Shown here piece by piece: positions 11,776 to 64,000 of a stretch of 64,000 nt of DNA (its first letter is position 1; each line of letters begins with the position of its first letter). The notes under the pieces are model-generated. The model was given only the letters and a program-made list of their open reading frames with translations, searched no databases and had not been told where the DNA came from. The position numbers and the translations under genes were made by a program. The DNA is from Sphagnum magellanicum (Eukaryota > Streptophyta > Sphagnopsida > Sphagnales > Sphagnaceae): contig CM038913.1 of NCBI GenBank assembly GCA_021904315.1, positions 6,943,958-7,007,957 of the forward strand. Direction: 5' to 3'.

Positions 11776-13000
11776 ACTATCTAAAAACCAAAGCAAGAGG
11801 TAGAAGGCATGGATATAAACAAATGGTTTGTATGAATTAAGACATGTTATTATTCAAATAAAAGCAAACCAATAGTGAAAACACATACAAGAACTTGAAT
11901 GAGTTAAGTAGGAGAATGTTCATTTACAATAGGAATATGAAAACGAGAACAAGAAGTATAGGTAGATGAAGCAATAATGGGATGACTTGGGTGCTCAATA
12001 AGAAGGTTGGCAATGTAGTAGCAAGGTTGTGGACCATAACACACACAGCTTATAGGCACATGTCGACGAATTGCAAATTGTAAAACCCAGAACAACTAGC
12101 AAGTGTGCTTTTAAATATGCAAAGGAATGGTATGAATTTGACACTAAATAGGAAGTACAAGAGCCGCAAAAGGAAATCACCAAATTGACAACTTTATCAC
12201 CAAGCTAAAGAGTCAATAACCATATTCTACATACTATAGGTTGTGAGAATATGAAAACCTCAAGGTAGAAAATGTTTTGCTTAACTTGCATTGTGAAACA
12301 TTGGGTCTTTAAGCAAGTGAGTTAGCAAATTGGTGGGATGAGATATAGGATATATTTAAGTAGGATTTATAGCAAGTGCTACAATAGGTATGAACTAATG
12401 AACATTTCTACCACCACTAGTTGCAAGATACAAGATTGCCTTTCCCAATTTTCAATACACTCCACTAGTATTGAGTTTGGAGTCACCACCATGTAGTATT
12501 TATAATCAAGTAGGTCCTAATTTGGTAATAGAATAGATTCACACCATGGTGAGTAGGTAGAATAGGAGGTGCTAGTACTTTCTAATGTACACATGCCAAC
12601 ATAATTCAAAGATGTTGGTGTTTTTCCTAACATAAAAGCAGTTCAACATGAAGAGGATTTGGAAGGTCAGAAGATATTATCTCAATCCACATAGTTCACC
12701 TATTTGTTGCAAATTTTACAAGAACTACAATAGTATACAAAAGAGCTACAATAGGGACAAATGGCAAAATTAATACTCCTTCCATCCCAACTACCACTAA
12801 TTGTTGTTGCATATAAAATGGAATCACACATTCTTGATCCGCAACCAATACTTGGAATGATAATGAATGAAGAATAGGAGGTCGAGGCTTTTTTGTTATA
12901 GGATGTTGCACAAGTTCTTTAATAGGCTCATAGATGTTTAGACTTCTATAGGGTAAAATTACAATCAAAGGAGTCACGCAAATGAGTAGACACTCTTTAA
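11776..13000 (+). pseudogene. Polar, coiled-coil-like coding relic (left arm copy)
   Basis: One + strand frame reads as a long Gln/Lys/Glu-rich, heptad-like sequence (for example IQELE, EYENENKKY and WDDLGAQ, about 11,880-12,000), broken by many stops. The right arm carries the same frame on the - strand (62,790-64,000) with most of the same breaks, so the gene was already dead before the two copies separated. A retroelement gag-type protein is one possibility, so it is treated as a fossil. No family motif supports a firm call. Confidence 0.35.
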
Positions 13001-16000
13001 AAATTGAATCAACATTCCTTTTGAAATTTGGAGAGGATTTAAACTTTGATGATTAGAAGGGAAAAAGGATTTGAACTAATAAAAAAATTAATTATAATCG
13101 ATTTGAGCACATTTGGTTCCAATGTGTTTTTGACCCTAAAAATTATGGATTTTGAAAATGTGACCTCAACAAAAAATTGTTCATATTTATATGATAGAGG
13201 AGATGAATGCATAATATATGTGATATAAAATCAATTTTTAGCCAAAAAATATTTGTATCTAACATGTAGTGTTAAATTGAGTATCCAAAATACAAAATTT
13301 TAAGTTATAAAGCAACATAGAAATGACATGTGTCATGTGCAATCCTTGGAAAAGGACTTTTACTTTGGTGCCCCTGGTTCCTTTGACCATGTTTTCACCA
13401 TGTAGTAATTATTTTTCTTTCAAATAACAAGGATTTTGGGGATGGAATCCAAAATACATAGTGGGTAATGTTAAGGGAACAAGTAGGTAATGTAAGGATT
13501 GGATAAGTAAGTAAAATGGGATTGTACATATAGGCATGGTAAGATTAAACATGTAGATAGTTTGACAATTGGTTCAAATTTGGACATGAGGTAGGTTTTG
13601 AATTTTTGTTGTTCCAAATGGGGTTTTGAAAAGAAATGGGGCAACATTTCCTCTCCTCCCTAATTTGGTTGTGTATCACTTTTCTTTGCAAGTTTTGAAT
13701 GTTTTGAAAACATTAGTTTGTGTGTGATAAAAAATGTAGAGGTTAGATGTAAGAAACTAAAAGGAATTAAGGTTTACATAATAAACTATGATCAATACCT
13801 GCATGTAGAAAACTTGTTAGGATTATTAATGAAAGTGTTGTTAGTAGATCTAAAATCCAATAATTAAACATCATTTTGATACGTGTTTTGAATTTTTTTT
13901 GCATAGAACTAGAAGTTAATACTTACCACTCCCACTTATCATTCAAAAAGTGCACAATGAAAACAAATTTGTTCACTCTTGTTTTGAACATTCGTAAGTC
14001 GAAACTTGTGACGCAAGAATTACAAGATTCAAGGGTTTTAACAATTACTTTTCCTTGATCTTCTCTACCATGGACTAAGCAAGGTTTCATTGACCATGGT
14101 TCACTTGGATGGAAAAGTGAGACAAGGATTTTATTTTAGAACTAGCCTCCTAAAAAATGGGGCTTCAATAAAAGAAAATAACACTAGCTCCTTAATTATG
14201 AACATCATCACATCTTTTTCAAACTACCTTTGGCGAGAATCATCCCTAAGGTAAAGGCATTTCACTACCAATTTTTTTTTTAAAATGCTTAAGAGGTAGG
14301 GCCAAATTTATTTTTTGTAAGTTGCCTCTCTCTTTTAGCCCCATCTTTCTTTCATTCAATCCATTCATTCCACACTTGCCAATGAGCAATTTCAATGTGT
14401 TTGAAGTGCATAAACCTATTTGCCATCTTGTAGGCTATCATGCCCTTCTTAAATCTTGTAATTGGTGCAAAAAGATAAGAAATGACAGATTTCAATTCTT
14501 TGAGTTGATTTGAGCTTCAACTTATGTTGTAAAAGATGTGGTAGTATATGCAAAGAATGCCCAAATTGTGATAATGCAACTTTTGGGTTTTAAAAACTCT
14601 TGTTATTTGGTCAACAAAGCCCATTGTTGTGCAACATCCATGTTTATAGAATTTGTCGCCATTATTGTGCTTGTAGCAGCAACATAAACTAATGCAGAAC
14701 CACAATAATCAACTTCCAATGGAAGTTTAGTGGGATAGAATTACTCTTCAAAAGTAATATCCCTAGCATCAAACCTTAAACCCAAAAAAAAAACACTAAA
14801 AGAAGCATGATGGTAGGAAATTTAAAGTTTAAACATGAAAAAGAAAACCGGTTTTTTTTCAACCAATTGCTCCAATTCTTGAATTGCATGTGACAATGTG
14901 TTATGCACTTATAGATTCCTTTCAACTTTGTATGCAGTGATTTCAGTAGACATGTCAACATCGAAGGTCCATGCCACTTTAGAAATGCTTCGAATATGGA
15001 CATCATCATTTAGTAATTTATATTTCAAATCTTATACAACATTTTATCTCAGAAGTAATTTCACAATTCTTTGCTATTGTTGAACTTTACATGATCAAGA
15101 AAAACAAATCATTTTTTTCTCTACATGTAATGGAGAATGGGATTAAATCACACACTACCTCTCTGTTATATTAGTTTTTTATTGTGCCCTAAACCCTAAA
15201 CCCTTGGGTTAGTATCTTTCTTTCTACAAAATGTATGTGGAACTCAAATGAATGTAGCCTTCTTGTTTGTTGAAGTGTTAGTTATGATGTGTTTCTTGCC
15301 ATGTAAATTAGTGTTTGAATGGAATGTCTGACTAAATAGTACTTTTGTTTTTGCAGCAAAGCTTGGAGTTGATGTGGAGTCTCTGTGATCAACGTTATAA
15401 ATTGCTTGGGATTTCACTTAACCAAACACCATCGCAACAAAGAGCATTTTGGATTCCGAGGTATAGCTCTCATCACTTCGAGACATCCTAAATATTGCTA
15501 CATTCAGTTAAATAATCAAAATGAGACACAATTCTTTCACCAAATAACAAGACTACACTAGGTTGGGATTGCATTCAAAAACAAGTTGAAACAACACGGT
15601 TATTGCTCGTAGTGAATGAAACCTTTGTGTCCAAAAATTCAGCCTTTTGAAAGGAGCAAACTTGATTCTCACAATAGATGATCGGCATAAAAACATAGTC
15701 TCGCCAACATGTGTACACTTGATGTTCGTTTCAATTCAAAAGGCTTTAAACTTGGGTTTACATGCTGCTCTTACACCAAGTTAAGCTATGGGAACTTTGG
15801 AATCAAAAGGGACACTACAATTAATGAAATGAAACTATCAATGGATGGAAGGAAACCGAGATTATCTTCTAGTGAATCTGGGGATTGCTCAAGCAAAAGC
15901 CATTGCAACCTAATATTTTGCATGAAGGAAGAAGACATCTTCACCACATATGTGATTGATTGATTGAAGCTTCTTCTTTTTTTCCATCTGTTTATATGAA

Positions 16001-16600
16001 CTTGCATACCGACTATAGGAAAAACCATTCATTAATTTGTTGTCGCCACAATGCCACAACATAAACATTCTCCTCTTGGGTCACAAAACTATCAATCACA
16101 TGGTCCATGCAATATAACCGCTTCAAGGAGTTTCGCAACAATGTGAACCATGCAGATATTAGAACCCACTTGATCTCTGAATAATGTATTGAATTATGTC
16201 TATTATTCAATATCAAGCATGCCAACTTAGGTTGGTAAGGAAAACTCAATTGTGGCATGAATGGTCTATGTTGGACAAATTGGACCTATATCTGCCACTA
16301 GATAGAAATAAACCAAAGCATGTGGTGATTTTTGTGGGTTTAACAGGTACAAAGCATGTGGCACTTTATTAGGCCAATAGATTGGGCTTGAATGACCCAA
16401 CACCCACTAGTGCACCATCCAAAAAATCCCATTTTGGGATTTCATGGATGGGATGAAAGTGTCTCCCCCATGGGTCAATTTACTTGGTCAATATATTTTT
16501 TTCTTCTGGACCTTTTTTCCCCTGATCTAAATTTTTTTCATACTTTTTTTTCCCAAATCATAGTTTTTTTTTCCTAGGCCTCCTTTTGATTTTTTTTCTT
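13000..16600. other. Left-arm sequence without recognisable gene
   Basis: Conserved in the right arm (56,480-62,800) apart from two one-arm insertions or deletions there. Short open stretches (14,322-14,513; 15,709-15,963; 15,786-16,028 on the other strand) stay open in both copies, but without indel or substitution patterns that favour one frame. Position 15,187-15,203 holds two TTTAGGG-type units, too few to mean a telomere remnant. Just before 16,600 begins a pyrimidine-rich stretch leading into the zinc-finger gene. Confidence 0.5.
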
Positions 16601-16929
16601 GCCACCCTTGACACCAATTGTTTTTTGGGAACTCTTACCTACCCCCTCCAACCTACCTAAAGCCCTTCCTCCTACCAACCCATCAACCTCCCTCATTCAG
16701 GTCACCCCTCATTTGCACTCCCTTCCATCGCCAACACTTGAAAAACATGGACAACATGGGCATTTGGGTTGAGGGCTTTCAAAGCTTCAAAAGCTTGAAG
16801 AGCGTGAAGAAGGGACCAACTTCAAAGTTTGAAAGGGGACAATTTGAATCATGGGAAAAGGTGGAGCTTGCAAAACATGAAGAGCCCATGAACTTGGAGG
16901 TAAGTTTCCTTCTCCCTTTTTTTTCTTTG

Positions 16930-17131
16930 AGTTTTTTCCTTTATCAATGGGGGATGCCAACAAGCTTAAACTTGTCTGCATTTTTTCTGAATTTGCTCTT
17001 CTATCTAGGGGGATGCCAATGAACTTGAGCTTGTTGGAACTTTTTTTTTGAAGGTGCAACTTAGTCCAGGGAGGACGTTGATGACCTAAAGCTTGTTGGT
17101 TTTTTTTTTAAATGTGCTCCTTTGTTGAAGG

Positions 17132-17165
<34 letters not shown>

Positions 17166-17735
17166 ATTTTTTTTTAGTGTGGTCCTCTATTTAGGGGGGA
17201 TGCTAATGAGTTGAAGCTCATTAGCCATTTTTTTTAGTGTGTTCTTCTATCTAGGGGGGATATCAACCAACTAAAACGTCAACCTTTTTTTTTAATGTGC
17301 TTTTCTACCCAAGGGGACGTTGACGAATAGAAGCTTGTTCACTTTTTTTTTCTAGTGTGTGTTTTTGTCAAATAGGGATGTTCACGAGTTGAAGTTCGTT
17401 AGGCATTTTTTTTAGTGTGTTCTTCTATCCAGAGGGGACACCAACGAACGTGGCCTTTTCTTTTTAGATTGCTCCTCTATCCAAAAAGGACGCCAATGAG
17501 CTTTAGTTCATTGGCCATTTTTTTAATGTGCTCCTATGTCAAGGGGGACGTCAACAAGCTGAAGCTTGTTGGTTATTTTTTTTAGTATGCTCTTCTATCC
17601 AGGGGTAATGCTAATGAGATTTAGTTCATCATCCATTTGTTTTTGGATTTTGATGGTCTATCTGGCACTTGTCTTATTGATTGTGATTTCTTTTGAGTTG
17701 TCTCCTTTGTCTAATGAATTCCCCAATGAGTTTTT
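16930..17735 (+). repeat. About 60-bp intronic minisatellite with self-complementary units (left)
   Basis: About a dozen degenerate units lie inside intron 1 of the zinc-finger gene. Each has a poly-T run followed by AG, then a TGTGCTCCTCTATCCAGGGG-like core, then a short palindrome such as AACAAGCTGAAGCTTGTT (17,551) or TAATGAGTTGAAGCTCATTA (17,201). Stem sequences vary between units (AACAAG/CTTGTT, AATGAG/CTCATT) while pairing is often kept. The right arm has the same array on the other strand at 55,370-56,150. Confidence 0.8.
17131..17164 (+). repeat. Long G homopolymer in the minisatellite
   Basis: GGGG, one A, then 29 consecutive G bases (17,136-17,164). The equivalent place in the right arm (55,945-55,954) has only 10 C. 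It is either a replication-slippage expansion with G-quadruplex potential or a sequencing-length error; the sequence alone cannot tell which. Confidence 0.85.
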
Positions 17736-18399
17736 GCTCATTAGCATTTTTTTTTTGAGAATTGCAAGTCTTCAACTATTTTGTGTGTTTGCTGCTACTT
17801 GCAGGAAGGCATGTGCTCCTCTTTATGGTTTTTCTTTGTTGCTACCTACAGAGATGCGATGACCTGAATTATAATGATGTAGTTGGTGATGGTTTTTTTT
17901 GTTTCTAGAGCTAGAAAATGAATTAGCTAGTGTTGGTGGTGGTCTTTATTTTGTTTTTTGATCTTTTTTTTAGATGAAAACACTTAAAAAAATAACGACT
18001 AATGCATTTGATCAACAAGCTACAATTGATGATGTGGATGGCATGTGGGGTTTGAGGAGTGAAGGAGATTTGGAGGCAAGGGATGGAGGACAAGTGCAAA
18101 CGAATGTTGAAAATGCATTGGCTCCAAGCACAATCAATGAAGAACAAGTGCGAGCAAGTGTTGATGTTGTGGAAACATCTATAGCAAATGTTGTTAAAAT
18201 TCAAGTGGATTTGGTGAAAATAATTTTGAACATAGTGGAGCAAAAGACTATAGATTTTATTCCAATGCTAGAGCAAGAGAATGCAAATGAGGTTGTTGAT
18301 ATTGATCGAGGTGACATATTGAATTTTATTTATTATAATTAATTGCCCCGTCCATCTTTCTAGTAGAGAGGATGGTGGGGGTATTTTTTGTCAAAAGTT

Positions 18400-18700
18400 T
18401 GGGTGCAATACCTTCATTAATTAAACCCATTAGTTGTGGTTATTAAACCTATGCCCCATCTTCCTTCTCCATATGAGAGGGTGGGTGTGGCATTTGTTTT
18501 TGTTCAAAATCTTTAAGTAATACCTCAAGGATTTGTAAGTGATATTGTTTTTTCTAGGGTTAGATTCATTTTTTACAATTTTGAATATTAGGTTTTAGCA
18601 ATACCCTCATCTTTTCTTGTTGATATTTTATCCTTTATATTTTTGTGCAATACCCTCATTTTTCTCTTTGATTTTTTATCTATCTATGCAATACCCTTAT
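18400..18700. repeat. Cluster of GCAATACCCTCAT motifs inside intron 2
   Basis: The motif or a one-base variant begins at 18,405, 18,598, 18,647 and 18,688, all in the same orientation, within the intron between exons 2 and 3 of the zinc-finger gene. The right arm keeps it inverted (about 54,369; 54,410; 54,494; 54,686). It is the same word that builds the arrays at 20,010-20,660 and 45,260-46,160. Confidence 0.75.
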
Positions 18701-20009
18701 CATATGTGGGTTAACTTTCATCTAGAATGTTAATTATCACATTAAGTTTATTATTATTATTTTTTGGTTTCAGATGCGATTGCCCCTTTTGCAGTTTTTA
18801 TAGAAGGTGTCCATTGGGCAAGGGATGGTATTAAGTGCGCTTGCAGTGTTGATGGGTGTGATGCATCCTATATCACTAAGTGCAACTTGGTACAACATTT
18901 GTGAGCATGCCACAATGTGGTTATGGAGCCGAGCAAGCCCAAACACCCATCTACTTGAGAAGAAAGCCCGAGGCATCAAAATAATGTGGCCATGAATGCA
19001 TGGGTTTTGAATAACCCTTTGGCCCAATTTTATCGCAATGAGAAAAAAACAATTGCTAAGTCTAGGAGGCATGTAAACCTAGATTGGGATAAGCTTTAAG
19101 TTGTTTTGCGAGACACACCTAAGGTTCCTAAGCTCGCACTTGTCAAACTAACCTCTAGCCACATTCTTGAACTTTTTGGCATGACTGCATGGGGTGTGGG
19201 GTCCATCATTTTCAATGTGCAAGCCAAGGTGGAATGTGATGAGGACCTTGTAATTGTGATTCAAATGATTCGAACCATATATGTAAAGGGGTTTAAATAT
19301 ATTTGGATGTAGTGGGACTAAAAGTATGCATTTAATAAGATGGTGTGGCATGATGAGATTGACCTTCTTATGTAATACCATGAATAAAAAATGATTAATG
19401 GTTTGTAAGTTATAACAATGCCATATTCAATTTTATTTGAATTTCAAGTTGTAGGTTTCATATGCAATAATTATTGTATTGTGTTGCTTGTTTTAGGGTT
19501 TGAGGCACCACTAGGGAGGTGCTTGTGGTTGATGTTATGGAAGTAGCATTGGCCAATCGTGGGGTATTTACAAGTTGACATGCCTAGGATGCAAAAATTG
19601 CATCAACGTGGTATAGGAGGGGCAATGGGATCCCATCCCCCTTTAATAATGACACACATAGTCCAAAGTTTATCCCCATTTTGATTAGGGTGTTGTTTTG
19701 GACTTTAGGATGTTAAAGTAGTAATTTATCTTTGAGGGAGCCACATATTTACCATTATGATATGTTCCCCATTTTATTGTGGGTTTGTTTCAAACTTGGA
19801 CATTTTTGTGAAATTTTTTTAACACATTTCACCCATTTAAAAAAATAAGGCATTTTACTTTCTTTTTTTGCACCGCCTTGTGTTAATGGTTAAAAATACA
19901 TTCTCACATATTCCTATATGTATGTTTGATGAAATTGTCAAAAAAATTATTCTAGTATTGCACTCAAATAAAAAAACCTTTCTTGACTCCCAAAAATGAA
20001 AAGTTCAAA

Positions 20010-20660
20010 CCTTGAAGGAAAAGAATACCTTCATGAGGGTATTATGTAAACACCATGGGCTGAATTATTTTGGTTCAAGCTATTGGAAGGGTATTGTTCA
20101 TGCCCAAAATTACTACCCAATGCATACATGCAGTACCTTTTTTAGGGTATATAAAAAATCCTTTGGGTTCCATAACATATGTATTGAAACCTAAAGGGGT
20201 ATTGCATAGCCATTCCAAAACCTGGAAGGAAAGCAATACCCTCATGGAGGTATTTTGTAAACACCATGGGTTGAATTATTTTGGTCCAAGTTATCAAAAG
20301 GGTATTGTTCATGCCTATAATTATTCAATGCATGTGCAATACCCTTTTCAAGGTATATAAGAAATCCTTGGGCTCCATACCATATCTATTGAAATGTGGA
20401 GGGGTATTGCATAGCCATACCACAACCTAGAAGGAAAACAATACCCTCATTAGGGTACTTTACAAACACCATGGGTTAAATTATTTTGGTTTAGGCTATC
20501 GAAGGGGTATTGTTAATGCCCATAATTACTCAATTCACATGTAATACCCCTTTCAAGATATCCCATAAATCCTTTGGGTTCTTTAACATATCTTTTAGAA
20601 CTTGGATGGATATTGCATAACCCTAGCAAAACCTAGAAGGAAAGCAATACTCACATCATT
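20010..20660 (+). repeat. Subterminal-type array of about 190-bp units (left unit, outer end)
   Basis: Three to four units of about 190 bp. Each contains alternating-orientation copies of the GGGTATTG/CAATACCC word, set in a fixed order: AATACCCTCAT, AACACCATGGG, GGGTATTGTTCATGCC, TGCAATACCCCTTTC, then GGGGTATTGCATAGCC. The right arm has the inverse array at 52,480-53,050, and a third array at 45,260-46,060 lies in direct orientation to this one. Short open frames here are by-products of the repetition. Confidence 0.85.
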
Positions 20661-22950
20661 TTGCAATGATATCATAAACCATGAAACAAATGAATGTTTT
20701 TTAAAATATTTATTCCATGTTCACTATATCATGCCATACATATTGATTTAAGTAAATGAGGGTATTGCAAAGGTGGTCACATTGACGACATAAGGTTTTA
20801 CTTGAATAAAGTTATGGAGTTTAAATACAATATTTGCATCATATTGGGATATTTGCATTCACCATGAAACATAAGGTTTTTTTTTCAATAATTGATCCCC
20901 TTGCAATATATCATGCAATTCATGTTTTCAAAATTATTTGTTCACCTTACAATATGATTTAATATGTATAACATGAAGGTTATGAAAAATTGGTCACATT
21001 GATAGTAGAGGGGTTCATGGTTTAAAGTTTGATGTGTAATTTATAACTTAATGTTAGAATTCATATTTTCTTGAAATTAAAACTACAAGTTAATTTGAAC
21101 ATTTTTCCAATGATGTACATATTTATGGTTTTCCCCTCTTAAAGTTGCAAATTCATTTCAAGAAAACAAAAACATAAAGTTTATTATTTGACAAGATTTT
21201 AATGGTTGTTTACAAATAAAATTATAGCACATGATGTCACCTTTATTTAATGCTTCACATATTAATAAAAATTGATACCTCTCCCATATATTAGTCCCAT
21301 GTATGATTGAAATTTAATTTTATATATTTTTTAACATATATTAATTAATTTCTCACCTAAAATAATTATATAACAGATCGTTTATATTTTATATTTTATA
21401 AATATGTAACACAATTATTTATGTAATTTTTTATAATGATGTATACTATTGGCTTAAATATTGGTCTTTAAATATATTTTTGTTTATATCAAGTAAAAGT
21501 TATATAATTCATAATATCTTAAAATTAAAATTTTATTCATTTCAATAAATATAATATCTTAATATATATTTTAAATACCATAATAATTTATTAAAATTTA
21601 TACTAAATGTAAATTTAATGTATATAAACCCATTGTTATGTATAGTGCAATTTTTTTTCATGTTTTTAGATTTTTAGAGAGAATTCTAAAATTCAAAAAA
21701 AGAGTTATTACATTGTATATTTTAGTAATGCATGTAATTGAATATTATTTCAATGTAAATTGAAATTTAGTTTATAACATATCAAATAATGCCATATATG
21801 ATCAATAATTTTATAATAGTTTAATGTGTATACCCTTTTGTATTAAAATATACCCAAGTTTTTTAAAAATTAATCTTTCATTAAAAAAATAGATGTATTT
21901 TTTTTTTGAATGAATGGATGGTTACTTGTGATTCAAAAAATAAAAATGGTATATAAATATCAAATTGTAATGAATTTTTGAAAATTAGTTAAAATTTTTA
22001 AAACTTTATTTTTATGTCTCATGGTTAATAGCATTATCACAATATAATGAAAGTATTGTAATTACACTTTAAAACTTTGTTCATGCACAATGTGGCTAAT
22101 TTTGCAATACCTTCATTTACATATATTAACCATTTTGCATTGGTCCATTAAACAATTCTTGTTGTTTATGAATTTGAAAATGTCTTTCAATTATATCTAA
22201 TGTTTAATTAAAATTTATACCAAGTTAAAATAATTATGCAAATATTGTATCTCTGGAAATGAATAATAATAATAATTTTACACATTAATTATGTCATTAT
22301 TTAATACATTGTAAATTAAATTTTACATAGAATTAATTTACAAGGATTAAACTTACATAATATTGTAACTTGTATTTCAAACTTCAAATAAAATATCTTT
22401 AAAACTAAAAATTGATAGTTTGTGCAACATTATTATTTTTTGAATCATAAGTACCATTCATTTATTCAAATAAAATCTACACATGTTTTACTTTTAATAA
22501 AAGATGAAAAAATAAATATTTGAATGTATTATAATACAAAAAGGAATACACATTAAAGCGTCACAAAATTATTGATCAATATTGGCATTATTTGATATGT
22601 TATGAACTAAGTTTCAATTTACTTATAAATGATATTCAATGTACATGCGTTAATAAATATGCAACAATTTTTTTTTGAATTAAATTTTTTTCTTTAAAAC
22701 TAAAAAACATCATGCACAAATTGCATTATACATAAAAATGGGTACATATAAAAAATTCATTTAATATATATTTTTAGTGAACTCTTATCCCATTTTAAAT
22801 AAATATGAAGATATTATATGTATTAAAATGAATCAAAATTATAATTTCATAATATTATTACTTAAATATTTTATTACTCCATATGTTATAAATAACAATA
22901 TATTTAGACCAATGTTTAAGCCAATATTATACATCATAAAAAATTATATG
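20640..22950. repeat. Left unit interior: repeated AT-rich modules
   Basis: Contains copies of two modules. One (about 170-190 bp; ATGTTTCATGG, a GGTCACATTGA word and TTTGCAATACCTTCATTTAC) recurs at about 20,650-20,830, 20,840-21,010 and 22,010-22,140. The other (about 0.4-0.5 kb; TGTATAGTGCAATTTTTT, AATACATATAATAT and ATTGGCTTAAATATTGG words) lies at about 21,300-21,800 (+) and again at 22,560-22,960 (-). Both also occur in 24,590-25,480 and in the right arm. No gene seen. Confidence 0.65.
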
Positions 22951-23199
22951 GAATACATTTAAGTTAAAATTTATACATAAAATTATGATATATTGGAAGA
23001 AAGATGTATTATATAAGATAAATTCCTAAATCAAATGAAGGTTGAAGATATGAAAAATATTTATGTATTTATTCTTGTATTACCCATAAAGGTTTTTCCA
23101 TTTACAAATCATGTGTTTGAATTTATTTTTTCCAACTAATGGTAATTGACATGTTATTTAATAAAAAAATTCAAATATTTTTCATTTGAAATGAATGGC

Positions 23200-24012
23200 T
23201 ATGGTTGTAATGCCCTTGGAAACAAACTAAAGAAAAAATATGGAGGAAGCATGTCAAGCACTCAAATGTTGATATTTCATGTGTGTAATTGATGTTCAAA
23301 TTCATTTATGGATATTTAAGATGTTGCATTCTTCAAGGAAGGTGTAGCCTTACGAAAAACATTTTTTGTTGTCAATTCGAGTGGCACATCACTAATTGCC
23401 ACCATTACAATTGAAGAGCATTTGGGGAGGGGTTGTTATTGTGATGGCTCTAGAAACATATTAAGGAGGAAATATGGAAGAAATGTCAACAACCAAAATC
23501 TCATACCTCCATTTGTGTAGTTGATGTTCCACGTTATTGAATGTGTCATCCTAGCTAAAAAATTGATATCATGTACATCTCAACGTTAATCACCTTAATA
23601 CTAGTGTTCCCATTTTCATTATTATAACTTGTGATTTAAGTAATCAATAGTTCAACAAAATGAATAAAAGAGAGTTGTTGCAAGGTCTTTTTCAAGACCT
23701 AAAAAAAATTCTTGAAAGATTGTCAAGTTGTAAAAAACATTATATGAAATTGATGATGAAGTACAACAATGTTGTAAGCAAATGTGTGATTTGGTGATAA
23801 CATTATATATAGTTTCATATAACCCTTGCAAGCACCCACATGCATTGCACAAGTGTTTACACAATGAACAAGCCCAAATTTTCCTCACGATAGAAACTAG
23901 AGCATGTGACCGCTCCAATAAACTATACGTTGGAAAAGGGATTTTCTCCATGTCTAAAATTAAGACTTGAAATGAGACTTGGGGGTTTTGTATAATTAGT
24001 GAAAGCCACACA
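23200..24012. other. Coding-like segment of the unit, function unknown (left copy)
   Basis: Less AT-rich than its surroundings and conserved in the right arm (48,250-49,020, inverted). Several frames stay open in both copies: a 119-codon frame on the - strand (23,652-24,011) and, on the + strand, a leucine-rich stretch near 23,660-23,750 followed by a frame at 23,782-23,970. The two copies differ by a 3-bp indel near 23,752, which keeps frame on either strand. No known motif. I cannot say which strand, if any, was coding. Confidence 0.35.
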
Positions 24013-24559
24013 TTCCACTAATTAAACTATTAGCTCGTCTCTCATGAAGTTTTAAACACAAGGTCTCAACACAAAAATAGAAAGTTGAGCTTTTAAAATT
24101 CATCAAAATGTTGTTGTTGTTGTTGTGAGAACTTCTCTTAAAATTCCAATATATATCCACACTTGTAGAACTTGTAAATAACAAGCTATCAATCAAAAGC
24201 ACTGATGATATATTTAAATATTTATTTTGGGATTGTGATCAAAAGGTTTTGTGCAAATTTAATTCCAAACCCATGATGCTTGAACCTATGAATTGCAGTA
24301 GAATTTTGTGGGTGTTCAATGATTCATGGTGCACAATAACTAGTCTACCCTCAACAACAAGTTGACATTTCAATTGCTAGAATTGGAGAAAATTACCAAT
24401 AAATAAGTAATGCCAAATTTTTATATTTGACTTTCAATGTGTGACCAAAGACATAAAAAGTCAATTCAACATATATTTATGTAATAATATTTGGTTTGCT
24501 TTTAGACAATTATCATATAGACATGTGAACAAATATTTGTTACCAATTTGACCTTCTAC

Positions 24560-25718: not shown

Positions 25719-25724
25719 AATCCT

Positions 25725-30795: not shown

Positions 30796-30799
30796 TTTT

Positions 30800-36410: not shown

Positions 36411-36415
36411 GCATG

Positions 36416-51380: not shown

Positions 51381-51606
51381 AACTTTGTTCAAGTAAAACC
51401 TTTTGTCGTCAATGTGACCACCTTTGCAATACCCTCATTTACTTGAATCAATATGTATGGCATGATATAGTGAACATGGAATAAATATTTTAAAAAACAT
51501 TTTTTTGTTTCGTGGTTTACGATATCATTGCAAAATGATGTGAGTATTGCTTTCCTTCTAGGTTTTGCTAAGGGTATGCAATATCCATCCAAGTTCTAAA
51601 AGATAT

Positions 51607-52471: not shown

Positions 52472-52479
52472 ATATGTTA

Positions 52480-53050
52480 AGGAACCCAAAGGATTTATGG
52501 GATATCTTGAGAGGGGTATTGCATGTGAATTGAGTAATTATGGGCATTAACAATACCCCTTCAATAGCCTGAACCAAAATAATTGAACCCATGGTGTTTG
52601 TAGAGTACCTTGATGAGGGTATTGTTTTCCTTCTAGGTTGTGGTATGGCTATGCAATACCCTTCCACATTTCAATACATATGGTATGGAGCCCAAGGATT
52701 TCTTATATACCTTGAAAGGGGTATTGCACATGCATTGAGTAATTATAGGCATGAACAATACCCTTTTGATAGCCTGAACCAAAATAATTCAACCCATGGT
52801 GTTTACATAATATCCCCATGAGGGTATTGCTTTCCTTCCAGGTTTTGGAATGGCTATGCAATACCCCTTTTGGTTTCAATACATCTATTATGGAACCCAA
52901 AGGATTTTTTATATACCCTAAAAAAGGTATTGCATGTATGGATTGGGTAGTAATTTTGGGCATGAACAATACCCTTCCAATAGCTTGAACCAAAATAATT
53001 CAGCCCATGGTGTTTACATAATACCCTCATGAAGGTATTCTTTTCCTTCG
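52480..53050 (-). repeat. Subterminal-type array (right unit, outer end)
   Basis: Inverse counterpart of 20,010-20,600: about three units of 190 bp with ATGAGGGTATTGC, CCATGGTGTTTAC and GGGCATGAACAATACCC words. Open frames here are by-products of the repeat. Confidence 0.85.
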
Positions 53051-53676
53051 AGGTTTGAACTTTTCATTTTTGGGAGTCAAGAAAGGTTTTTTTATTTGAG
53101 TGCAATACTAGAATATTTTTTTTGACAATTTCATCAAACATACATATAGGAATATGTGAGAATGTATTTTTAACCATTAACACGAGGTGGTGCAAAAAGA
53201 AAAAAAAATGCCTTAATTTTTTTTTAAATGGGTGAAATGTGTTACGAAAATTTCACAAAAATGTCCAAGTTTGAAACAAACCCACTATAAAATGGGGAAC
53301 ATATCATAATGGTAAATATGTGGCTGCCTCAAAGATAAATTACTACTTTAACATCCTAAAGTCCAAAACAACACCCTAATCAAAATGGGGATAAACTTTG
53401 GACTATATGTGTCATTATTAAAGGGGGATGGGATCCCATTGCCCCTCTTGTACCACGTTGATGCAATTTTTGCATCCTAGGCATGTCGACTTGTAAATAC
53501 CAAACGATTGGCCAATGTTACTTCCATAACATCAACCACAAGCACCTCCCTAATGGTGCCTCAAACCTTAAAACAAGCAACACAATACAATAATTATTAC
53601 ATATGAAACCTAAAACTTGAAATTCAAATAAAATTGAATATGGCATTATTATAACTTACAAACCATTAATCATTTT

Positions 53677-56335
53677 TTATTCATGGTATTGCATAAGAAG
53701 GGCAATCTCATCATGCCACACCATCTTATTAGATGCAGACTTCTCGTCGCATTGCATCCAAATGTCTTTAAACCCCTTTACATATATGGTTCGAATCATT
53801 TGAATCACAATTACAAGGTCCTCATCACACTTCACCTTGGCTTGCACATTGAAAATGATGGACCCCACACCCCATGCAGTCATGCCAAGAAGTTCAAGAA
53901 TGTGGCTAGAGGCTAGTTTGACAAGTGCGAGCTTAGGAACCTTAGGCGTGTTTCGCAAAACAACCTAAAGCTTATCCCAATCTAGGTTTACATGCCTCCT
54001 AGCCTTAGCAATTGTTTTTTTCTCATTGCGATAGAATTAGGCCAAAGGGTTACTCAAAACCCATGCATTCATGGCCACATGATTTTGATGCCTTAAGCTT
54101 TCTTCTCAAGTAGATGGATGTTTGGGCTCGCTTGGCTCCATAACCACATTGTGGCATGCTCACAAATGTTGTACCAAGTTGTACTTAGTGATATAGGATG
54201 CATCACACCCATCAACATTGCAAGCGCACTTAATACCATCCCTTGCCCAATGGACACCTTCTATAAAAACTGCAAAAGGGGTAATTGCATCTGAAACCAA
54301 AAAAACAATAAACAAGAAACTTAATGTGATAATTAACATTCTAGATGAAAGTTAACCCACATATGATAAGGGTATTGCATAGATAGATAAAAAATCAAAA
54401 AGAAAAATGAGGGTATTGCACAAAAATATAAAGGATTAAAAACATGAGATGAAGATATTAAACATAAAGATAAAAGATCAACAAGAAAAGATGAGGGTAT
54501 TGCTAAAGCCTAGTATTCAAAATTGTGAAAAATGAATCTAACCCTAGAAAAAACAATATCACTTACAAAGCCTTGAGGTATTACTTAAAGATTTTGAACA
54601 AAAACAAATGCCACACCCACCCTCTCATATGGAGAAGGAAGATGGGGCACAAGTTTAACAACCACAATTAATGGGTTCAATTAATGAAGGTATTGCACCC
54701 AAAATTTTGACCAAAAATACCCCCACCATCCTTTCTACTAGAGAGATGGATGGGGCAATTAATTATAATAAGTAAAATTTAATATGTCACCTCGATCAAT
54801 ATCAACAACCTCATTTGCATTTTGTTGCTCTAGCATTGGAATAAAATCTATAGTCTTTTACTCCACTATGTTCAAAATTATTTTCACCAAATCCACTTCA
54901 ATTTTAACAACATATGCTATAGATGTTTCCACAACATCAACATTTGCTTGCACTTGTTCTTCATTGATCGTGCTTGGAGCCAATGCATTTTCAACACTCG
55001 TTTGCACTTGTCCTCCATCCCTTGCCTCCAAATCTCCTTCACTCCTCAAACCCCACATGCCATCCACATCATCAATTGTAGCTTGTTGATCAGATGCATT
55101 AGTCGTTATTTTTTTAAGTGTTTGCATCTAAAAAAAAGATCAAAAAAAAAAAAAAAACCACCACCAACACTAGCTAGTTCATTTTCTAGCTCTAGAAACA
55201 AAAAAAACCATCACCAACTACATTATTATAGTTTAAGTCATCGCATTTCTGTAGGTAGCAACAAAGAAAAACCATAAAGAGGAGCACATGCCTTCTTGCA
55301 AGTAGCAGCAAACAAACAAAAAATAGTTGAAGACTTGTAATTCTCAAAAAAAAAATGCCAACGAGCAAAAATTCATCGGCAAGTTCATTGGACAAAGGAG
55401 ACAACTCAAAAGAAACCACAGTCAATGAGACAAGTGTTAGATAGACCATCAAAATCCAAAAAAAAATGGATAATGAACTAAAGTTCATTAGCATTGCCCT
55501 TGGATAGAATAGCATATTAAAAAAAAAAAACCAACAAGCTTCAGCTTGTTGACGTCCCCTTGGACATAGGAGCACATTAAAAAAATGGCTAATGAACAAA
55601 GTTCATTGGCATCCCCTTTGGACAAAGGAGCAATCTAAAAAGAAAAGGCCACGTTCGTTGGTGTCCCCCCTGGATAGAAGAATAGACTAAAAAAAATGCC
55701 TAACGAACTTCAGCTTGTGAACATCCCTATTTGACAAAAACGCACGCTAGAAAAAAAAAGCGAACAAGCTTCTATTCGTCAACGTCCCCTTGGGTAGAAA
55801 AACACATTAAAAAAAAAGGTTGATGAGTTTTAGTTGGTTGATATCCCCCTTATATAGAAGAACACACTAAAAAAAATGGCTAATGAACTTCAGCTCATTA
55901 GCATCCCCCCTAAATAGGGGACCACATTCAAAAAAAAATGTGCGCCCCCCCCCCTTCAACAAAGGAGCACATTATAAAAAAAACCAACAAGCTTTAGCTC
56001 ATCAACGTCCTCCTTGGACAAAGGTGCAACATCAAAAAAAAAGTTCCAACAAGCTCAAGTTCATTGGCATCCCCCCAGATAGAGGAGCAAATTCAAAAAA
56101 GATGCAAACAAGCTTAAGCTTGTTAGCATCCCCCATTGATAAAGGAAAAAACTCAAAGAAAAAAAAGGGAGAAGGAAACTTACCTCCAAGTTCATGGGCT
56201 CTTCATGTTTGTAAGCTCCACCTTTTCCCACGCTTCAAACTGTCCCCCTTCAAACTTTGAAGTTGGTCCCTTCTTCATGCTCTTCAAGCTTTTGAAGCTT
56301 TGAAAGCCCTCAACCCAAATGCCCATGTTGTCCAT
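53677..56335 (-). pseudogene. Decayed three-exon C2H2 zinc-finger gene of the repeat (right copy)
   Basis: Counterpart of 16,747-19,380. Exon 1 is 56,184-56,335 (one base shorter than the left copy, which shifts its end out of frame). Exon 2 is 54,791-55,127 (337 bp, the same length as on the left, with a CAA-to-TAA type stop near its end). Exon 3 runs from 54,290 down to about 53,677. The C-terminal block (KVPKLALVKLASSHILELLG, MTAWGVGSIIFNVQAK, IWMQCDEKSASNKMVWHDEI) is open for 93 codons here, more complete than on the left. Splice sites are kept. The two copies decayed independently after sharing some older damage. Confidence 0.5.
55370..56150 (-). repeat. About 60-bp intronic minisatellite with self-complementary units (right)
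   Basis: Inverse counterpart of 16,930-17,735, again inside intron 1 of the zinc-finger gene. Units show stems such as AACAAGCTTCAGCTTGTT (about 55,532) and TAATGAACTTCAGCTCATTA (about 55,880). Copy number is similar to the left, but individual units have diverged. Confidence 0.8.
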
Positions 56336-56902
56336 GTTTTTCAAGTGTTGGCAATGGAAGGGAGTGCAAATGAGGGGTGAGCTGAATGAGGGAGGTTGAT
56401 GGGTTGGTAGGAGGAAGGGCTTTAGATAGGTTGGAGGGGGTAGGTAAGAATTCCCAAAAAACAATTGGTGTTAAGGGTGGCAAGAAAAAAATCAAAAGGA
56501 GGCCTAGGAAAAAAAAACAATGATTTGGGAAAAAAAAAGTATGAAAAGAAAATTTAGATCGAAGGAAAAAAGGCCCAGAAGAAAAATATATATTGACCAA
56601 GTAAACTGACCCATGGGGGGGACACTTTCATCCCATCCATGAAATCCCAAAATGGGATTTTTTGGATGGTGCATTGGTGGGTGTTGGGTCATTCAAGCCC
56701 AATCTATTGGCTTAATAAAGTGCCACATGCTTTGTACTTGTTAAACCCACAAAAATCACCACATGCTTTGGTTTATCTCTATCTAGTGGTAGATATAGGT
56801 CTAATCTGTCCAACATAGACCATTCATGCCACAATTGAGTTTTCCTTCCCAACCTAAGTTGGCATGCTTGATTTTGAAAAATAGACATAATTCAATACAT
56901 TA

Positions 56903-57555
56903 CAAGATATATGTGAGAAAAAAAAGACATTCAAGGATGTAGATCCAATTATCATCTTGTTCAAAACATATTTTTAGGTTTTATGTAGTAAATACTTGTT
57001 TCAGGGCTAGTTTCCATACATCACGCATGCCACCATGGACACACTTGGAGAAGTAGTAAAAACAGCCCACTACAAAAAAAACTCCAAAAGACACCTTTCA
57101 ATCTTTCTATCTACCAAAGATCTTGCCACAAAGTCGCCACAAGAGGCGTTCAGTGAAAGTTGTATCCTTTTGATGAAGGAAGGATGCATGGACATTCCAT
57201 TTGGCAAGGTTAATACCTTGCCTACTAGAGCTGAGCATAAGGTTACTAATTCAATTTAGTAGTATGAACATTGTATACTCTGGTGGAGGTTAGAGTGAAT
57301 TGACATACTTTCACCTTGAATGAAACCATGCATAAGGAAAATTGCATCGAGTTCCAATCCTATCACAAAACAAAGGTATTAGTGAGATGAAATTTTTTAT
57401 ATTGTAATGTTTCCAAAAACACAATGAGTTTTGTTATAATTGTATTCAAATTTTGAGCTTTGTTATAATTGGTTTAAGAGTCCAAAAAGCATTGCACGTA
57501 GAAGTAGACGGTAAAAGTGGGCACGCCCAAGGTTTCGAAGAAGAGTTAGGGTTAG
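56903..57555. other. 653-bp segment found only in the right arm
   Basis: The left arm joins the flanks directly at about 16,188 (AATACATTA followed by TTCAGAGATCAAG). No terminal repeat or target duplication is visible, so it may be an insertion on the right or a deletion on the left. It contains an open frame of 74 codons (57,035-57,259, +) with a polar, protein-like composition (SPQEAFSESCILLMKEGCMD) that I do not recognise. Confidence 0.6.
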
Positions 57556-58511
57556 TTCAAAGATCAAGTGGGTTTTAGTAGCTTCATGGTTCACATTGTT
57601 ACGAAACTCCTTGAACTAGTTATATTGCATGGACCATGTGATTAATAGTTTTGTGACCCAAGAAAAGAATGCTTATGTTGTGACATTGTGGGGACAACAA
57701 ATTAATGAATGGTTTTTCCTCTAGTTGGTATGCAAGTTCATATAAAAAAATGGAAAAAAAGAAGAAGCTTCAATCAATCGATCACATATGTGGTGAAGAT
57801 GTCTTCTTCCTTCATGCAAAATATTAGGTTACAATGGCTCTTGCTTGAGCAATCCCCAAATTCACTAGAAGATAATCTTGATTTCCTTCCATCCATTGAT
57901 AGTTTCATTTCATTAATTGTAGTGTCCCTTTTGATTCCAAAGTTCCCATAGCTTAACTTGGTGTAAGAGCAGCATGTAAACCCAAGTTTGAAGCCTTTTG
58001 AATTGAAATGAACATCAAGTGTACACATGTTGGCGAGACTATGTTTTTATGCCGATCACCTATTGTGAGAATCAAGTTTGCTCCTTTCAAAAGGCTGAAT
58101 TTTTGGACACAAAGGTTTCTTTCACTACAAGCAATAACCATGTTGTTTCAACTTGTTTTTGAATGTAATCCCAACTTAGTGTAGTCTTGTTGTTTGGTGA
58201 AATAATTGTGTTTCATTCTGATTATTTAACTGAATGTAACAATATTTAGGATTTGTTTCGAAGCGGTGAGAGCTATACCTTGGAATCCAAAATGTTCTTT
58301 GTTGCGATGGTGTTTGGCTAAGTGAGATCCCAAGCAATCTATAACACTAATCACGAAGACTCAACATCGATTCCAAGCTTTGCTGTAAAAACAAAAGTAC
58401 TCTTTAATCGGACAATCCATTCAAACACTAATTTACATGGCAAGAGACACATCATAACTAACACTTCAACAAACAAGAAGGCTACATTCACTTGAGTTCC
58501 ACATACATTTT

Positions 58512-60566
58512 CACTAGTAGAAATCAGCCAAAATGTAACCACTCCATTTATGACTACATGCGACTTGTAGTCGTTTACGACTGGATTTGGGAATATTTGC
58601 AACTACAAAACCAAATTTCAATTATTTTGGTCATTCTCACAACTATGATGCAACTATTAAAATTTTCATCCTATTGGTTAGATCGATTTTACATTCATTT
58701 TCATCCATTAATAGGTTAATATGTCCCATTAGTTACAGTAGTCACCAAATTAGTTGCATCCTAAAGGTATTCTACAATGACATACGGATGTATTTTAATG
58801 TATGTACTAAAATTATATATATATGCATACGTATGTATATTGTTCATATAATGAATCTCAAAATTAATATTTGAACTTTGGATTTTTAATTCAAATCTAA
58901 AAATTGATATTTCAATTATGAAAACTACTATTTTAGTTTTTAAAAATAATATTATAATTTGAAACTTGATATTTGAATTTGAAAATTGTTATTTCAATTG
59001 TTTAAAAGATTATTTGAATTTCAAATTTTTGATTTGAATATGATATTTTCAATTTAAATTCAAAAAGGCTTCTTTGATCTAAAAATTGATATTTGAATTC
59101 TAAATTCATGTTTTCGAATCCAAAAATTAGTATTTCAATTCAGAAGGTTATTAATTGATTATAAAACTGGACATTTTAATTTTGAATATTTTTATATGAA
59201 TATGGAAATTTATATTTCAATTTCTAAATATTTTCATTTAATTTTTCAATAATCATTTGATTTGAACCTGAAATTTCAATTCCAAATTATTATTTGGGAT
59301 TTTCAAAATTAATACTTCTAGTCTGAAAATTATTAATTAAGTCTAAAAATGGACATTTCAATTTGAATATTGTTATTTGAATCTGAAAATTTACATTTTG
59401 GCCAATTAATTGTAATAAAATAGTTAGCATAGGCTAGGTTTTAATTATATTATTAGATTTAAAAAACTACTACTTAATTTATATAATCATTAATTATTAA
59501 TAATTAGCTAATTATTTGAATATTAACCAATTATTAATGAATGAAATTTGTTGATAGATCATTATAGTTCATATATAATGAAAATTAAATATTATTACTG
59601 TTTATATAGCTAATAAATTAAGTAATATTTAGTAATAAATAATTAAATAATTAATGCAGTAATCATAATATATTGATGATTATTATTATAAATAATTATT
59701 TAGTTGGATAATTTATAAAGTGAATTAATTAATATCTAATTTAGTTGTTAAATAATTAATTAACTAGTTTATTAACTTATTTTTCTATTTTTTATTCATT
59801 AAATAATTAGCTAATTAGTTGTCACTTACCACTTAATTATATACTTTTCAAGATGGGGATGAAAGGTGTTCATCCCCATCTTGAAAAGTATATAAACAAG
59901 GTGTTTTGTCTTTATATTTTCATATTTAAAAATATGGACATATGGGATGAGCCAATGAAAAAGATTTAACCCAAAATAAATAAAAATATTAATGTATTTA
60001 CACTTAACTACATACTTCCCTAACTTACCTACCTACTTTTCTACCTACATACCTACCTAAGTAGGTATTTGGCCTAGGTAGGTAAATAGGTCCTATCTAG
60101 ATAGGTGTTTAGCCTATATGGGTAGGTAGGTATATAGGTAGGTAGGTACCTAGTTCAACCTACATACCTAAATATTGATTTAAATTGAATTTGGACAAAT
60201 TCAATTAATATTCCATGTGTCACATTTAAACAATCTAAACATAAAAATTAAACTTCTTGGATTATTTCAAAAGAATTTTTTAAAAAAATAATTATGAAAA
60301 GTTGGGACACGTGGCAACACATAAATTGTTCCCATTCTTCACCAAAAAAGTCGCATCCTAGTTGTAAATGACAATACATATATGACAAGTCAAAGGATGA
60401 AGGCGTATTTTGTTGACTTTTTCCTTCATCCAAAATTCGTTGTCGTTTGTGACTAGTGTCAATGCGACTTGCCCAACGCGACTATTAAGATTTTAGTTGC
60501 AAATGTCGCTTGCAATTAAAACTTAGTCGCATGGACCAATTGTAAAATGACCATTTTCTACTAGTG
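58512..60566 (+). mobile_element. Non-autonomous CACTA (EnSpm/CMC) DNA transposon, copy 3
   Basis: Ends CACTAGTAGAAA and TTTCTACTAGTG (perfect 12-bp inverted repeat), flanked by TTT on both sides (58,509-58,511; 60,567-60,569). The left arm near 15,218-15,240 has the corresponding empty site (in reverse complement ACATACATTTT followed by an AGAAAGAT stretch), which proves insertion after the arms separated. It shares termini, subterminal AGTTGCAA/AGTCGCA words, palindrome and TACCTACC block with copy 2. The interior (58,850-59,400) is a degenerate AAATTGATATTTGAATT-type repeat. No transposase. 2,055 bp. Confidence 0.92.
59837..59894. repeat. Near-perfect palindrome in CACTA copy 3
   Basis: ACTTTTCAAGATGGGGATGA pairs with TCATCCCCATCTTGAAAAGT around a loop of only a few bases. 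It corresponds to the palindrome of copy 2 (28,901-29,060) but with G:C pairs in place of A:T pairs at two stem positions. Confidence 0.9.
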
Positions 60567-62789
60567 TTTATAAAAAGAAAGATATTAACCCAAGGGTTAA
60601 GGGTTTAGGGCATAATAAAAATTTGATATAACAAAGAGGTAGTATGTGATTTAATCCCATTCTCCATTACATGTAGAGAAAAAAATAATTTGTTTTTCTT
60701 GATCATGTAAAGTTCAACAATAGCAAAGAATTGTGAAGTTACTTTTGAGCTAAAATGTTGTATAAGATTTGAAATATAAATTATTAAATGATGATGTCCA
60801 TATGTGAAGCATTTATAAAGTGGCATGGACCTTTAATGTTGACGTGTCTATTGAAATCACTGCATACAAAGTTGAAAGGAATCTATAAGTGCATAGCACA
60901 TTGTCACATGCAATTCAAGAATTGGAGCTATTGGTTGAAAAAAAACTGGTTTTCTTCTTCATGTTTAAATTTTAAACTTTAAATTTCCTACCATTAGGCT
61001 TCTTTAATATTTTTTTTTGGGTTTAAGGTTTGATGCCAGGGAGATTACTTTTGAAGAGTAATTTTATCCCACTAAACTTCCATTGGAAGTTGATTATTAT
61101 GGTTTTGCATTAGTTTATGTTGCTGCTACAACACAATAGTGGTGACAAATTCTATAACCATGGATGTTGCACAACAATGGGCTTTGTTGACCAAAAAACA
61201 AGAGTTTTGAAAACCCAAAAGTTGCATTATCGCAATTTGGGCATTCTTTGCATATATTACCATATCTTTTTCCAACGTAAGTTCAAGCTCAAATCAACTC
61301 AAAGAATTGAAGTCTATTATTTCTTATCTTTTTGCACCAATTAGAAGATTTAAGAAGGGCATGATAGCCTACAAGATGGCAAATAGGTTTATGCACTTCA
61401 AAAACATTGAAATTGCTCATTGGCAAGTGTGGAATGAGTGGATTGAATGAAAGAAAGATGGGGCTAAAGGAAAGAGGCAACCTACAAAAAATAAATTTGG
61501 CCCTACCTCTTAAGCATTAAAAAAAATAAAATGGTAGTGAAATGATGATTATTGCCAAAGGTAGTTTGAAAAAGATTTGATGATGTTCATAATTAAGGAG
61601 CTAGTGTTATTTTCTTTTATTGAAGCCCCATTTTTTAGGAGGCTAGTTCTAAGATAAAATCCTTGTCTCATTTTTCCATCCAAGTGAACCATGGTCAATG
61701 AAACCTTGCTTAGTCCATGGTAAAGAAGATCAAGGAAAAGTAATTGTTAAAACCCTTGAATCTTGTAATTATTGCATCACAAGTTTTGACTTACGAATGT
61801 TCAAAACAAGAATGAACAAATTTATTTTCATTGCCATTTTTTGAATGATAAGTGGGAGTGGTAAGTATTAACTTCTAGTTCTATGCAAAAAAAATTCAAA
61901 ACACGTATCCAAATGATGTTTATTGATTGGATTTTAGATCTACTAACAACACTTTCATTAATAATCCTAACAAGTTTTCTACATGCAGGTATATCATAGT
62001 TTATTATGAAACCTTAATTCCTTTTAGTTTCTTACATCTAACCTCTACATGTTTTCTCACACACAAACTAATGTTTTCAAAACATTCAAAATTTGCAAAG
62101 AAAAGTGATACACAACCAAATTAGGGAGGAGAGGAAATGTTGCCCCATTTCTTTTCAAAACCCCATTCGGAACAACAAAAATTCAAAAACTACCTTATGT
62201 CCAAATTTGAACCAATTGTCAAACTATCTACGTGTTTAATCTCACCATGCCTATATGTACAATCCCATTCTACTTACTTATCCAATCCTTACATTACCCA
62301 CTTGTTCCCTTAACATTACCCACTATGTGGTTTGGATTCCATCCCCGAAATCCTTGCTATTTGAAAGAAAAATAATTACTACATGGTGAAAACATGGTCA
62401 AAGGAACCAGGGGCACCAAAGTAAAAGTCCTTTTTCAAGGACTACAGATGACACATGTCATTTCTATGTTGCTTTATAACTTAAAATTTTGTATTTTGGA
62501 TACTCAATTTAACACTACATGTTAGATATAAATATTTTTTGACTAAAATTTGATTTTATATCACTTATATTATGCATTCATCTCCTCTATCATATAAATA
62601 TGAACAATTTTTTGTTGAGGTCACATTTTCAAAATCCATAATTTTTAGGGTCAAAAACACATTGGAACCAAATGTGCTCAAATTGATTATAATTAATTTT
62701 TTTATTAGTTCAAATCCTTTTTCCCTTCTAATCATCAAAGTTTAAATCCTCTCCAAATTTCAAAAGGAATGTCGATTCAATTTTTAAAG

Positions 62790-64000
62790 AGTGTCTACTC
62801 ATTTGCATGGCTCCTTTTACTGTAATTTTACCCTATAGAAGTCTAAACATCTATGAGCCTATTAAAGAACTTGTGCAACATCCTATAACAAAAAAACCTC
62901 GACCTCCTATTCTTCATTCATTATCATTCCAAGTATTGGTTGCGGATCAAGAATGTGTGATTCCATTTTATATGCAACAACAATTAGTGGTAGTTGGGAT
63001 GGAAGGAGTATTGATTTTGCCATTTGTCCCTATTGTAGCTCTTTTGTATACTATTTTAGTTCTTGTAAAATTTGCAACAAATAGGTGAACTATGTGGATT
63101 GAGATAATATCTTTTAACCTTCCAAATCCTCTTCATGTTGAACTACTTTTATGTTAGGAAAAACACCACCATCTTTGAATTATGTTGGCATGTGTACATT
63201 AGAAAGTACTAGCACCTCCTATTCTACCTACTCACCATGGTGTGAATCTATTCTATTACCAAATTAGGACCTACTTGATTGTAAATACTACATGGTGCTC
63301 AATACTAGTGGAATGTATTGGAAATTGGGAAAGGCAATCTTGTATCTTGCAACTAGTGGTGGTACAAATGTTCATTAGTTCATACCTATTGTAGCACTTG
63401 CTATAAATCCTACTTAAACATATCCTATATCTCATCCCACCAATTTGCTAATTCACTTGCTTAAAGACCCAATGTTTCACAATGCAAGTTAAGCAAAACA
63501 TTTTCTACCTTGAGGTTTTCATATTTTCGCAACCTATAGTATGTAGAATATGGTTATTGACTATTTAGCTTGGTGATAATACTTGTCAATTTGGTGATTT
63601 CCTTTTGCGGCTCTTGTACTTCCTATTTAGTCTCAAATTCATACCATTCCTTTGCATATTTAAAAGCACACTTACTAGTTGTTTTGGCTTCTACAATTTG
63701 CGATTCGTCTACATGTGCCTATAAGTTGTGTATGTTATGGTCCACAACCTTGCTACTACATTGCCAACCTTCTTATTGAGCACCCAAGTCATCCCATTAT
63801 TGCTTCATCTCCCTATACTCCTTGTTCTCGTTTTCATATTCCTATTGTAAATGAAGATTCTCCTACTTAACTTGTTCAAGTTCTTGCATGTGTTTTCACT
63901 ATTGGTTTGCTTCTATTTGAATAATAACATGTCTTAATTCATATAAACCATTTGTTTATATCCATGCCTTCTACCTCTTGCTTTGGTTTTTAGATAGTTT
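62790..64000 (-). pseudogene. Polar, coiled-coil-like coding relic (right arm copy)
   Basis: Inverse of 11,776-13,000 and broken in much the same way. The 93-codon frame on the + strand (62,807-63,088) mirrors a frame at 12,696-12,977 and is probably an antisense shadow of this relic, since the - strand composition (Gln/Lys/Glu-rich) is the more protein-like. Family unknown; treated as a fossil. Confidence 0.35.

Follow-up and report, generated by a model that had tools for sequence, protein, structure and literature searches.

We analyzed a stretch of 64,000 bases from Sphagnum magellanicum (assembly GCA_021904315.1, contig CM038913.1, positions 6,943,958 to 7,007,957 of the forward strand; hereafter, the window), which is 68% A+T and contains no N. 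Two long arms, reverse complements of each other, were found on either side of a spacer that encloses a cytochrome P450 gene. Probably, a repeat-rich, methylated block of a plant nuclear genome, next to the P450 gene and free of recognizable genes, underwent an inverted segmental duplication long ago. All in all, this structure gives the impression of a real, ancient duplication of a known and fairly ordinary kind, with no new type of element in it.

Self-BLAST of the window revealed five collinear inverted blocks (bit scores 1438 to 6710) linking positions 11774-25715 to 64000-46401. A global alignment of the two arms gave 95.3% identity across 13,815 aligned sites; a segmental duplication is defined by at least 1 kb at 90% identity or more within one genome. 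Among these sites we counted 646 substitutions (415 transitions and 231 transversions; Kimura two-parameter distance, 0.0485). The alignment contains 25 gaps in the left arm, one of which (33 bp) is an edge gap past the inner breakpoint, and 32 in the right arm. Both methods agree within rounding with the initial annotation, which had described reverse-complementary arms of at least 13.9 kb and 17.6 kb, differing by substitutions and indels, around a spacer of about 20.7 kb. Uniform identity near 100% had been named there as the mark of a misassembly; the identity in the assembled sequence is neither uniform nor near that value. The lengths of the arms (Table 1) are lower bounds, and the partner of the left arm's outer limit would fall past base 64000.

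Table 1. Coordinates of the arms, the spacer, and the features placed in them (positions are those of the window)
Feature	Position	Strand	Description
Left arm	11774-25715	+	13,942 bp; inner end truncated; self-BLAST and global alignment
Spacer	25716-46400		20,685 bp between the arms; encloses one intact P450 gene
Right arm	46401-64000	-	17,600 bp, cut off by the window edge; reverse-complementary to the left arm
Foldback-like unit, cut, left copy	20007-25715	+	Stops within the inner inverted end; inner array missing
Foldback-like unit, whole, right copy	45276-53056	-	Two inverted tandem arrays of 205-209 bp and long, internally repeated inverted ends
Cytochrome P450 gene, intact	39540-41645	+	Exons 39540-40073, 40339-40740, and 40995-41645; GT-AG introns; 528 amino acids
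Right-only 128-bp stretch	47551-47678		CCCTAAAC at both ends
Solo-LTR-like insertion (LTR, long terminal repeat)	51607-52471	-	865 bp; TGTAACC...GGCTACA ends; 4-bp target duplication ATAT
Right-only 653-bp stretch	56903-57555		No target duplication seen
Non-autonomous CACTA element	58512-60566	+	2,055 bp; CACTAGTAGAAA inverted at both ends; 3-bp target duplication AAA

The inner ends of the arms lie in a foldback-like unit, which is whole in the right copy and cut in the left copy. In the right copy, its two arrays lie in opposite orientation at about 45276-46031 and 52472-53056. The inverted ends are built of repeated modules, and positions 45963-47153 match 51606-50380 in inverted orientation at 76.8%; the unit thus has inverted ends that are long and contain tandem repeats, as is characteristic of foldback-type elements. 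The left copy stops at 25715, at the boundary of two modules in the inner inverted end. The right copy extends about 1.1 kb further (45276-46400), through a module of about 0.37 kb and about 0.76 kb of the 205-209-bp array, neither of which is in the left copy. The asymmetry of the inner ends had been recognized in the initial annotation, and its figure of 1.3 kb of right-only array is replaced by these values. Compared with the spacer and the left flank, the remainder at 45276-46400 gave only short matches (13-39 bp among the best eight of each; E value of 0.018 at best). Therefore, the left copy is a truncated version, and the right copy preserves more of the unit. Since homology ends within the inverted-repeat unit on the left but continues to about 45276 on the right, the two arms do not share an element terminus at their inner ends. 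In the other direction, the homology of the arms extends past the unit for 8.2 kb or more, with the order kept.

Pfam scans were run on six frames, with stops as X and E values up to 0.1. They covered the left flank, 25700-40701, and 45200-64000, the last including the right-arm homologue of the left arm. No Pfam domain was found in the six frames of 45200-64000. The unit resembles the foldback-type transposons Galileo and Tetris in its two long inverted ends, its internal repeats, and the middle region between them. It is unlike elements of this type in that no transposase domain was found, the ends are only about 75-77% alike, and no target duplication was determined, the edges of the arrays being fuzzy when three ends are aligned. 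Using the other inverted end as the reference, we polarized the changes at ungapped sites: the inner end had 21 changes in the left copy, 23 in the right copy, and 8 that were ambiguous, and the outer end had 14 in the left copy and 11 in the right copy. This balance indicates that neither copy underwent a burst of mutation at the unit ends. A 24-base pattern of the array had no match in viral_contigs or in genome_contigs, both of which are collections without plant genomes.

The differences between the arms look like the result of long divergence in methylated DNA. C-to-T-type differences, with the C and G positions of the two arms taken together, affected 76 of 312 CG sites (24%), 49 of 210 CHG sites (23%), and 290 of 7,956 CHH sites (3.6%). 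High C-to-T change at CG and CHG sites is the decay expected of methylated plant DNA. From this pattern we infer that the arms were methylated, and their divergence appears to be biological. Both arms are strongly depleted: the observed/expected ratios are 0.25 for CG and 0.22 for CAG/CTG in the left arm, and 0.23 and 0.19 in the right arm when the CACTA, LTR-like, and 653-bp stretches are set aside. Outside CG and CHG sites, the arms diverge by 3.8%. At substitution rates of 0.7 to 7 per site per billion years, the duplication would be roughly 27 to 2.7 million years old, to be read as a range only.

The right arm is 3,658 bp longer than the left, a difference covered by four gaps, all of them extra sequence in the right arm (2,058, 653, 869, and 128 bp; 3,708 bp in sum). 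The largest holds the CACTA element, with termini CACTAGTAGAAA at 58512-58523 (+) and 60555-60566 (-) and an unoccupied target site at 15228-15230 in the left arm. The 865-bp insertion has the TG...CA ends (here TGTA...TACA) and a target duplication within the 4 to 6 bp of a solo LTR, and its empty site lies at 20588-20591. Given the target duplications and the intact sites in the left arm, both insertions into the right arm postdate the duplication. They are also less depleted of CG than the arms (observed/expected, 0.57 for the CACTA element and 0.59 for the LTR-like insertion). The CACTA insertion has no transposase domain (six-frame Pfam scans of 45200-60201 and 60000-64000) and is therefore classed as non-autonomous. 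Its CACTAGTAGAAA start and its 3-bp target duplication are like those of the Jozin-type CACTA elements of Chenopodium; the available text of that report gives terminal repeats that start with CACTAGTAGAAA and describes target duplications of 3 bp as a trait of the group (PMC8978399). Unlike the Jozin-type element as described there, the insertion is only 2,055 bp long and contains no Pfam domain.

The other two right-only stretches may reflect losses from the left arm. The 653-bp stretch has CG and CAG/CTG ratios of 0.39 and 0.38 (8 and 5 sites), intermediate between those of the arms and the insertions, and we mildly prefer a deletion from the left arm to an insertion in the right. The repeats at both ends of the 128-bp stretch suggest a deletion between repeats, so that this stretch was probably deleted from the left arm. 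These repeats belong to a set of six telomere-like CCCTAAAC motifs (positions 15187, 15194, 46389, 47551, 47671, and 60603), compared with 1.59 expected in the window; none of 100 shuffles contained as many. One of them lies at the right inner breakpoint. We rejected the reading of this motif as a telomere scar, as the motifs recur within the arms and three are in the foldback-like unit. A role of the motifs in breakage is possible.

According to the reading that we favor, the right copy probably retains the ancestral junction, because the foldback-like unit is whole there. The abrupt end of the left copy would mark the point where the copied tract started, during repair of a break that copied the neighboring sequence in inverse orientation; alternatively, a later deletion may have taken the rest of the unit. 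Both copies would then have diverged, largely through methylation-driven C-to-T change. Later, the CACTA element and the LTR element would have inserted into the right copy; small pieces were probably lost from the left. The sequence itself shows the arms, the pattern of their divergence, both insertions with their target duplications, and one whole and one truncated unit; a low copy number of the block, the direction of copying, and the repair mechanism are what we infer. The initial annotation had offered two origins: an inverted duplication followed by loss at the left inner end fits these data, while two opposite insertions of one large element do not fit the inner ends.

A similar shape would result if staggered breaks had inverted the spacer, including the P450 gene: once the broken ends were filled and rejoined, each side would retain an inverted duplicate of a breakpoint region. 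We consider this origin unlikely. Inverted duplicates around an inverted segment are its published signature, and the arms on both sides of the P450 segment have that shape; the duplicates expected from the available text of these reports are short and nonrepetitive, whereas the arms are at least 14 kb long and repeat-like (PMC12368964, PMC4965816). In the case of Drosophila subobscura E12, inverted duplicates arose by a staggered-break inversion, in regions that were later disrupted by structural changes (PMC4965816). The locus studied here is similar in having duplicates at both sides of a segment and later structural disruption. It is unlike E12, as far as that case is described in the available text, in that its arms of at least 14 kb are decayed, repeat-like DNA and in that an inversion is a possibility suggested by the shape (PMC4965816). 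Only the arrangement in a relative could separate such an inversion from an inverted duplication.

Two independent copies of one large multicopy repeat or transposon, oppositely oriented by chance, would suit arms that are AT-rich, strongly depleted of CG and CAG/CTG, and furnished with tandem arrays. This origin is nevertheless rather improbable: the arms do not end at a common terminus on their inner sides, the six frames of 45200-64000 hold no Pfam domain, and the shared tract consists of the foldback-like unit plus its flank of at least 8.2 kb in the same order. Moreover, no LTR-like direct pair within an arm was present among the self-matches above 70 bits, and this absence, together with that of Pfam domains in 45200-64000, led us to reject one LTR element per arm. 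A giant element with its ends beyond the window would fit the inner ends poorly, though the outer ends would allow it.

It is quite improbable that the inverted arms are two diverged haplotypes, or two copies from different subgenomes, misjoined by the assembly. Haplotypes, too, show insertion differences of the sort seen between the arms; nevertheless, the arms diverge by 4.7% overall and by 24% at CG sites, more than is usual between alleles within a species, although not between subgenomes, and the window has no N.

The weakest alternative is a rearrangement driven by transposons, through ectopic recombination or alternative transposition of foldback-like elements. Alternative transposition of the Ac/Ds type puts breakpoints at transposon termini, while the left breakpoint falls inside an inverted end instead of at the outer edge of the unit. 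What does sit at the inner breakpoint is a foldback-like unit whose long inverted ends are internally repeated, and there are precedents in the available accounts of oppositely oriented Galileo copies at inversion breakpoints in Drosophila (PMC2775673) and of maize inversions produced by Ac/fAc transposition (PMC8225341), yet the unit lacks an identified target duplication and the homology runs at least 8.2 kb past it, beyond what ectopic recombination between element copies alone makes, so that we give this origin hardly any credence.

Several observations weigh against an inverted segmental duplication. Each arm could be a member of a dispersed family, and the outer ends of the arms fall outside the view of the window. 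The depletion of CG and CAG/CTG is not specific to the arms, since it is also seen in the left flank and in 25716-36400. The coincidence of the inner breakpoint with a module boundary of the unit is a possible mark of an element-driven break. Finally, simple drift does not predict the patchiness of the divergence between the arms. In 500-site windows the variance/mean ratio was 2.24 (0 of 2,000 permutations as high), and it was still 2.16 (P = 0.0005) without CG and CHG sites; it was 1.43 (P = 0.046) once close differences were merged.

This patchiness may hint at gene conversion. Outside CG and CHG sites, a low-divergence tract at 12504-13218 had 6 differences in 698 sites, and none of 300 simulations was as extreme under two settings; under a third setting, the tract spanned 12248-13218 (12 differences in 943 sites; 1 of 300 simulations as extreme). 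These simulations assume independent sites, yet neighboring differences exceed expectation (44 versus 19). The tract may reflect gene conversion or rate variation. Adjoining the breakpoint, a hot tract at 25016-25681 had 50 differences in 645 sites (0 of 300 simulations); it is homopolymer-rich, and the alignment there is uncertain.

In the favored reading, the P450 gene is a bystander to the duplication. Its three-exon model and a tblastn search of the window agree with the initial annotation of a single intact P450 gene between the arms: a second copy was ruled out, as the only other match had an E value of 8.8, and one P450 was the Pfam result in 25700-40701. The best relatives among solved structures were ferruginol synthase (E value, 4.6e-104) and sugiol synthase (8.7e-104), searched with a model that was one residue short. 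Together with the decay at CG and CHG sites and the CACTA element, this gene, its introns, and these relatives suggest a plant host. The CAG/CTG ratio is 1.25 upstream of the gene (37215-39539), 0.68 in the gene (39540-41645), and 0.53 downstream (41646-45275), while CG is low throughout the same intervals (0.31, 0.33, and 0.16). The CAG/CTG contrast alone suggests that the P450 region may be less methylated; CG gives no such contrast. Seven copies of a 113-bp repeat, with about 96% matches, form a tandem array at 36416-37214, 2.3 kb upstream of the gene. In contrast to its surroundings, it is scarcely depleted of CG (0.89), and it has no CAG/CTG.

Matches between spacer and arms above 70 bits came from the remainder of the foldback-like unit and from a diverged CACTA relative; weaker low-complexity matches were also present. 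The relative, of about 2.5 kb (27235-29755), is oriented like the CACTA element of the right arm; its terminus at 29744-29755 is intact, and the other is mutated. Within it lies a self-palindrome of about 160 bp (86%) at 28900-29060. A 112-bp tandem array (3.1 copies) is found at 26859-27207, with short related stretches at 29769-29836.

A reading frame of 118 amino acids is common to both arms (12696-13052 and 62732-63088). It has eight differences between the arms (3, 1, and 4 at the first, second, and third codon positions), and coding constraint was rejected, with five amino acid changes. In the left arm, about 35 G lie in a row (94% matches) at 17130-17164, and the right-arm counterpart of this run is 20 bases shorter. 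A reverse-transcriptase RNase H fragment (PF17919, PF17917) lies at about 7509-7793, in left-flank sequence beyond the known extent of the arm. Rfam at gathering thresholds gave no match.

Inverted repeats are known from other plant genomes. In Arabidopsis, PAI4-PAI1 and VIM4-VIM2 are adjacent inverted gene copies that make small RNAs, and one of them arose by inverted duplication (PMC13213937). Compared with these pairs, as described in the available text of that report, the arms studied here are 20.7 kb apart and contain no recognized gene (PMC13213937). The initial annotation had proposed that the arms could promote inversion of, or duplication around, the P450 gene, which is possible in principle. 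Continued recombination between the arms, if it occurs, would expose the P450 segment to inversion. One further scenario is very improbable: the foldback-like unit would be to plants what Galileo is to Drosophila, its inverted ends, long and filled with repeats, would have caused the break behind the inverted duplication, and the arms would go on exchanging sequence (12504-13218) and be able to turn the P450 segment around; if this were true, the orientation and the neighborhood of the P450 gene would vary within the species. The locus offers a natural example of a plant gene that came to sit between large inverted duplicates. Together, the two time-ordered insertions, the whole and the cut unit, and the methylation-type decay permit a partial reconstruction of the order of events.

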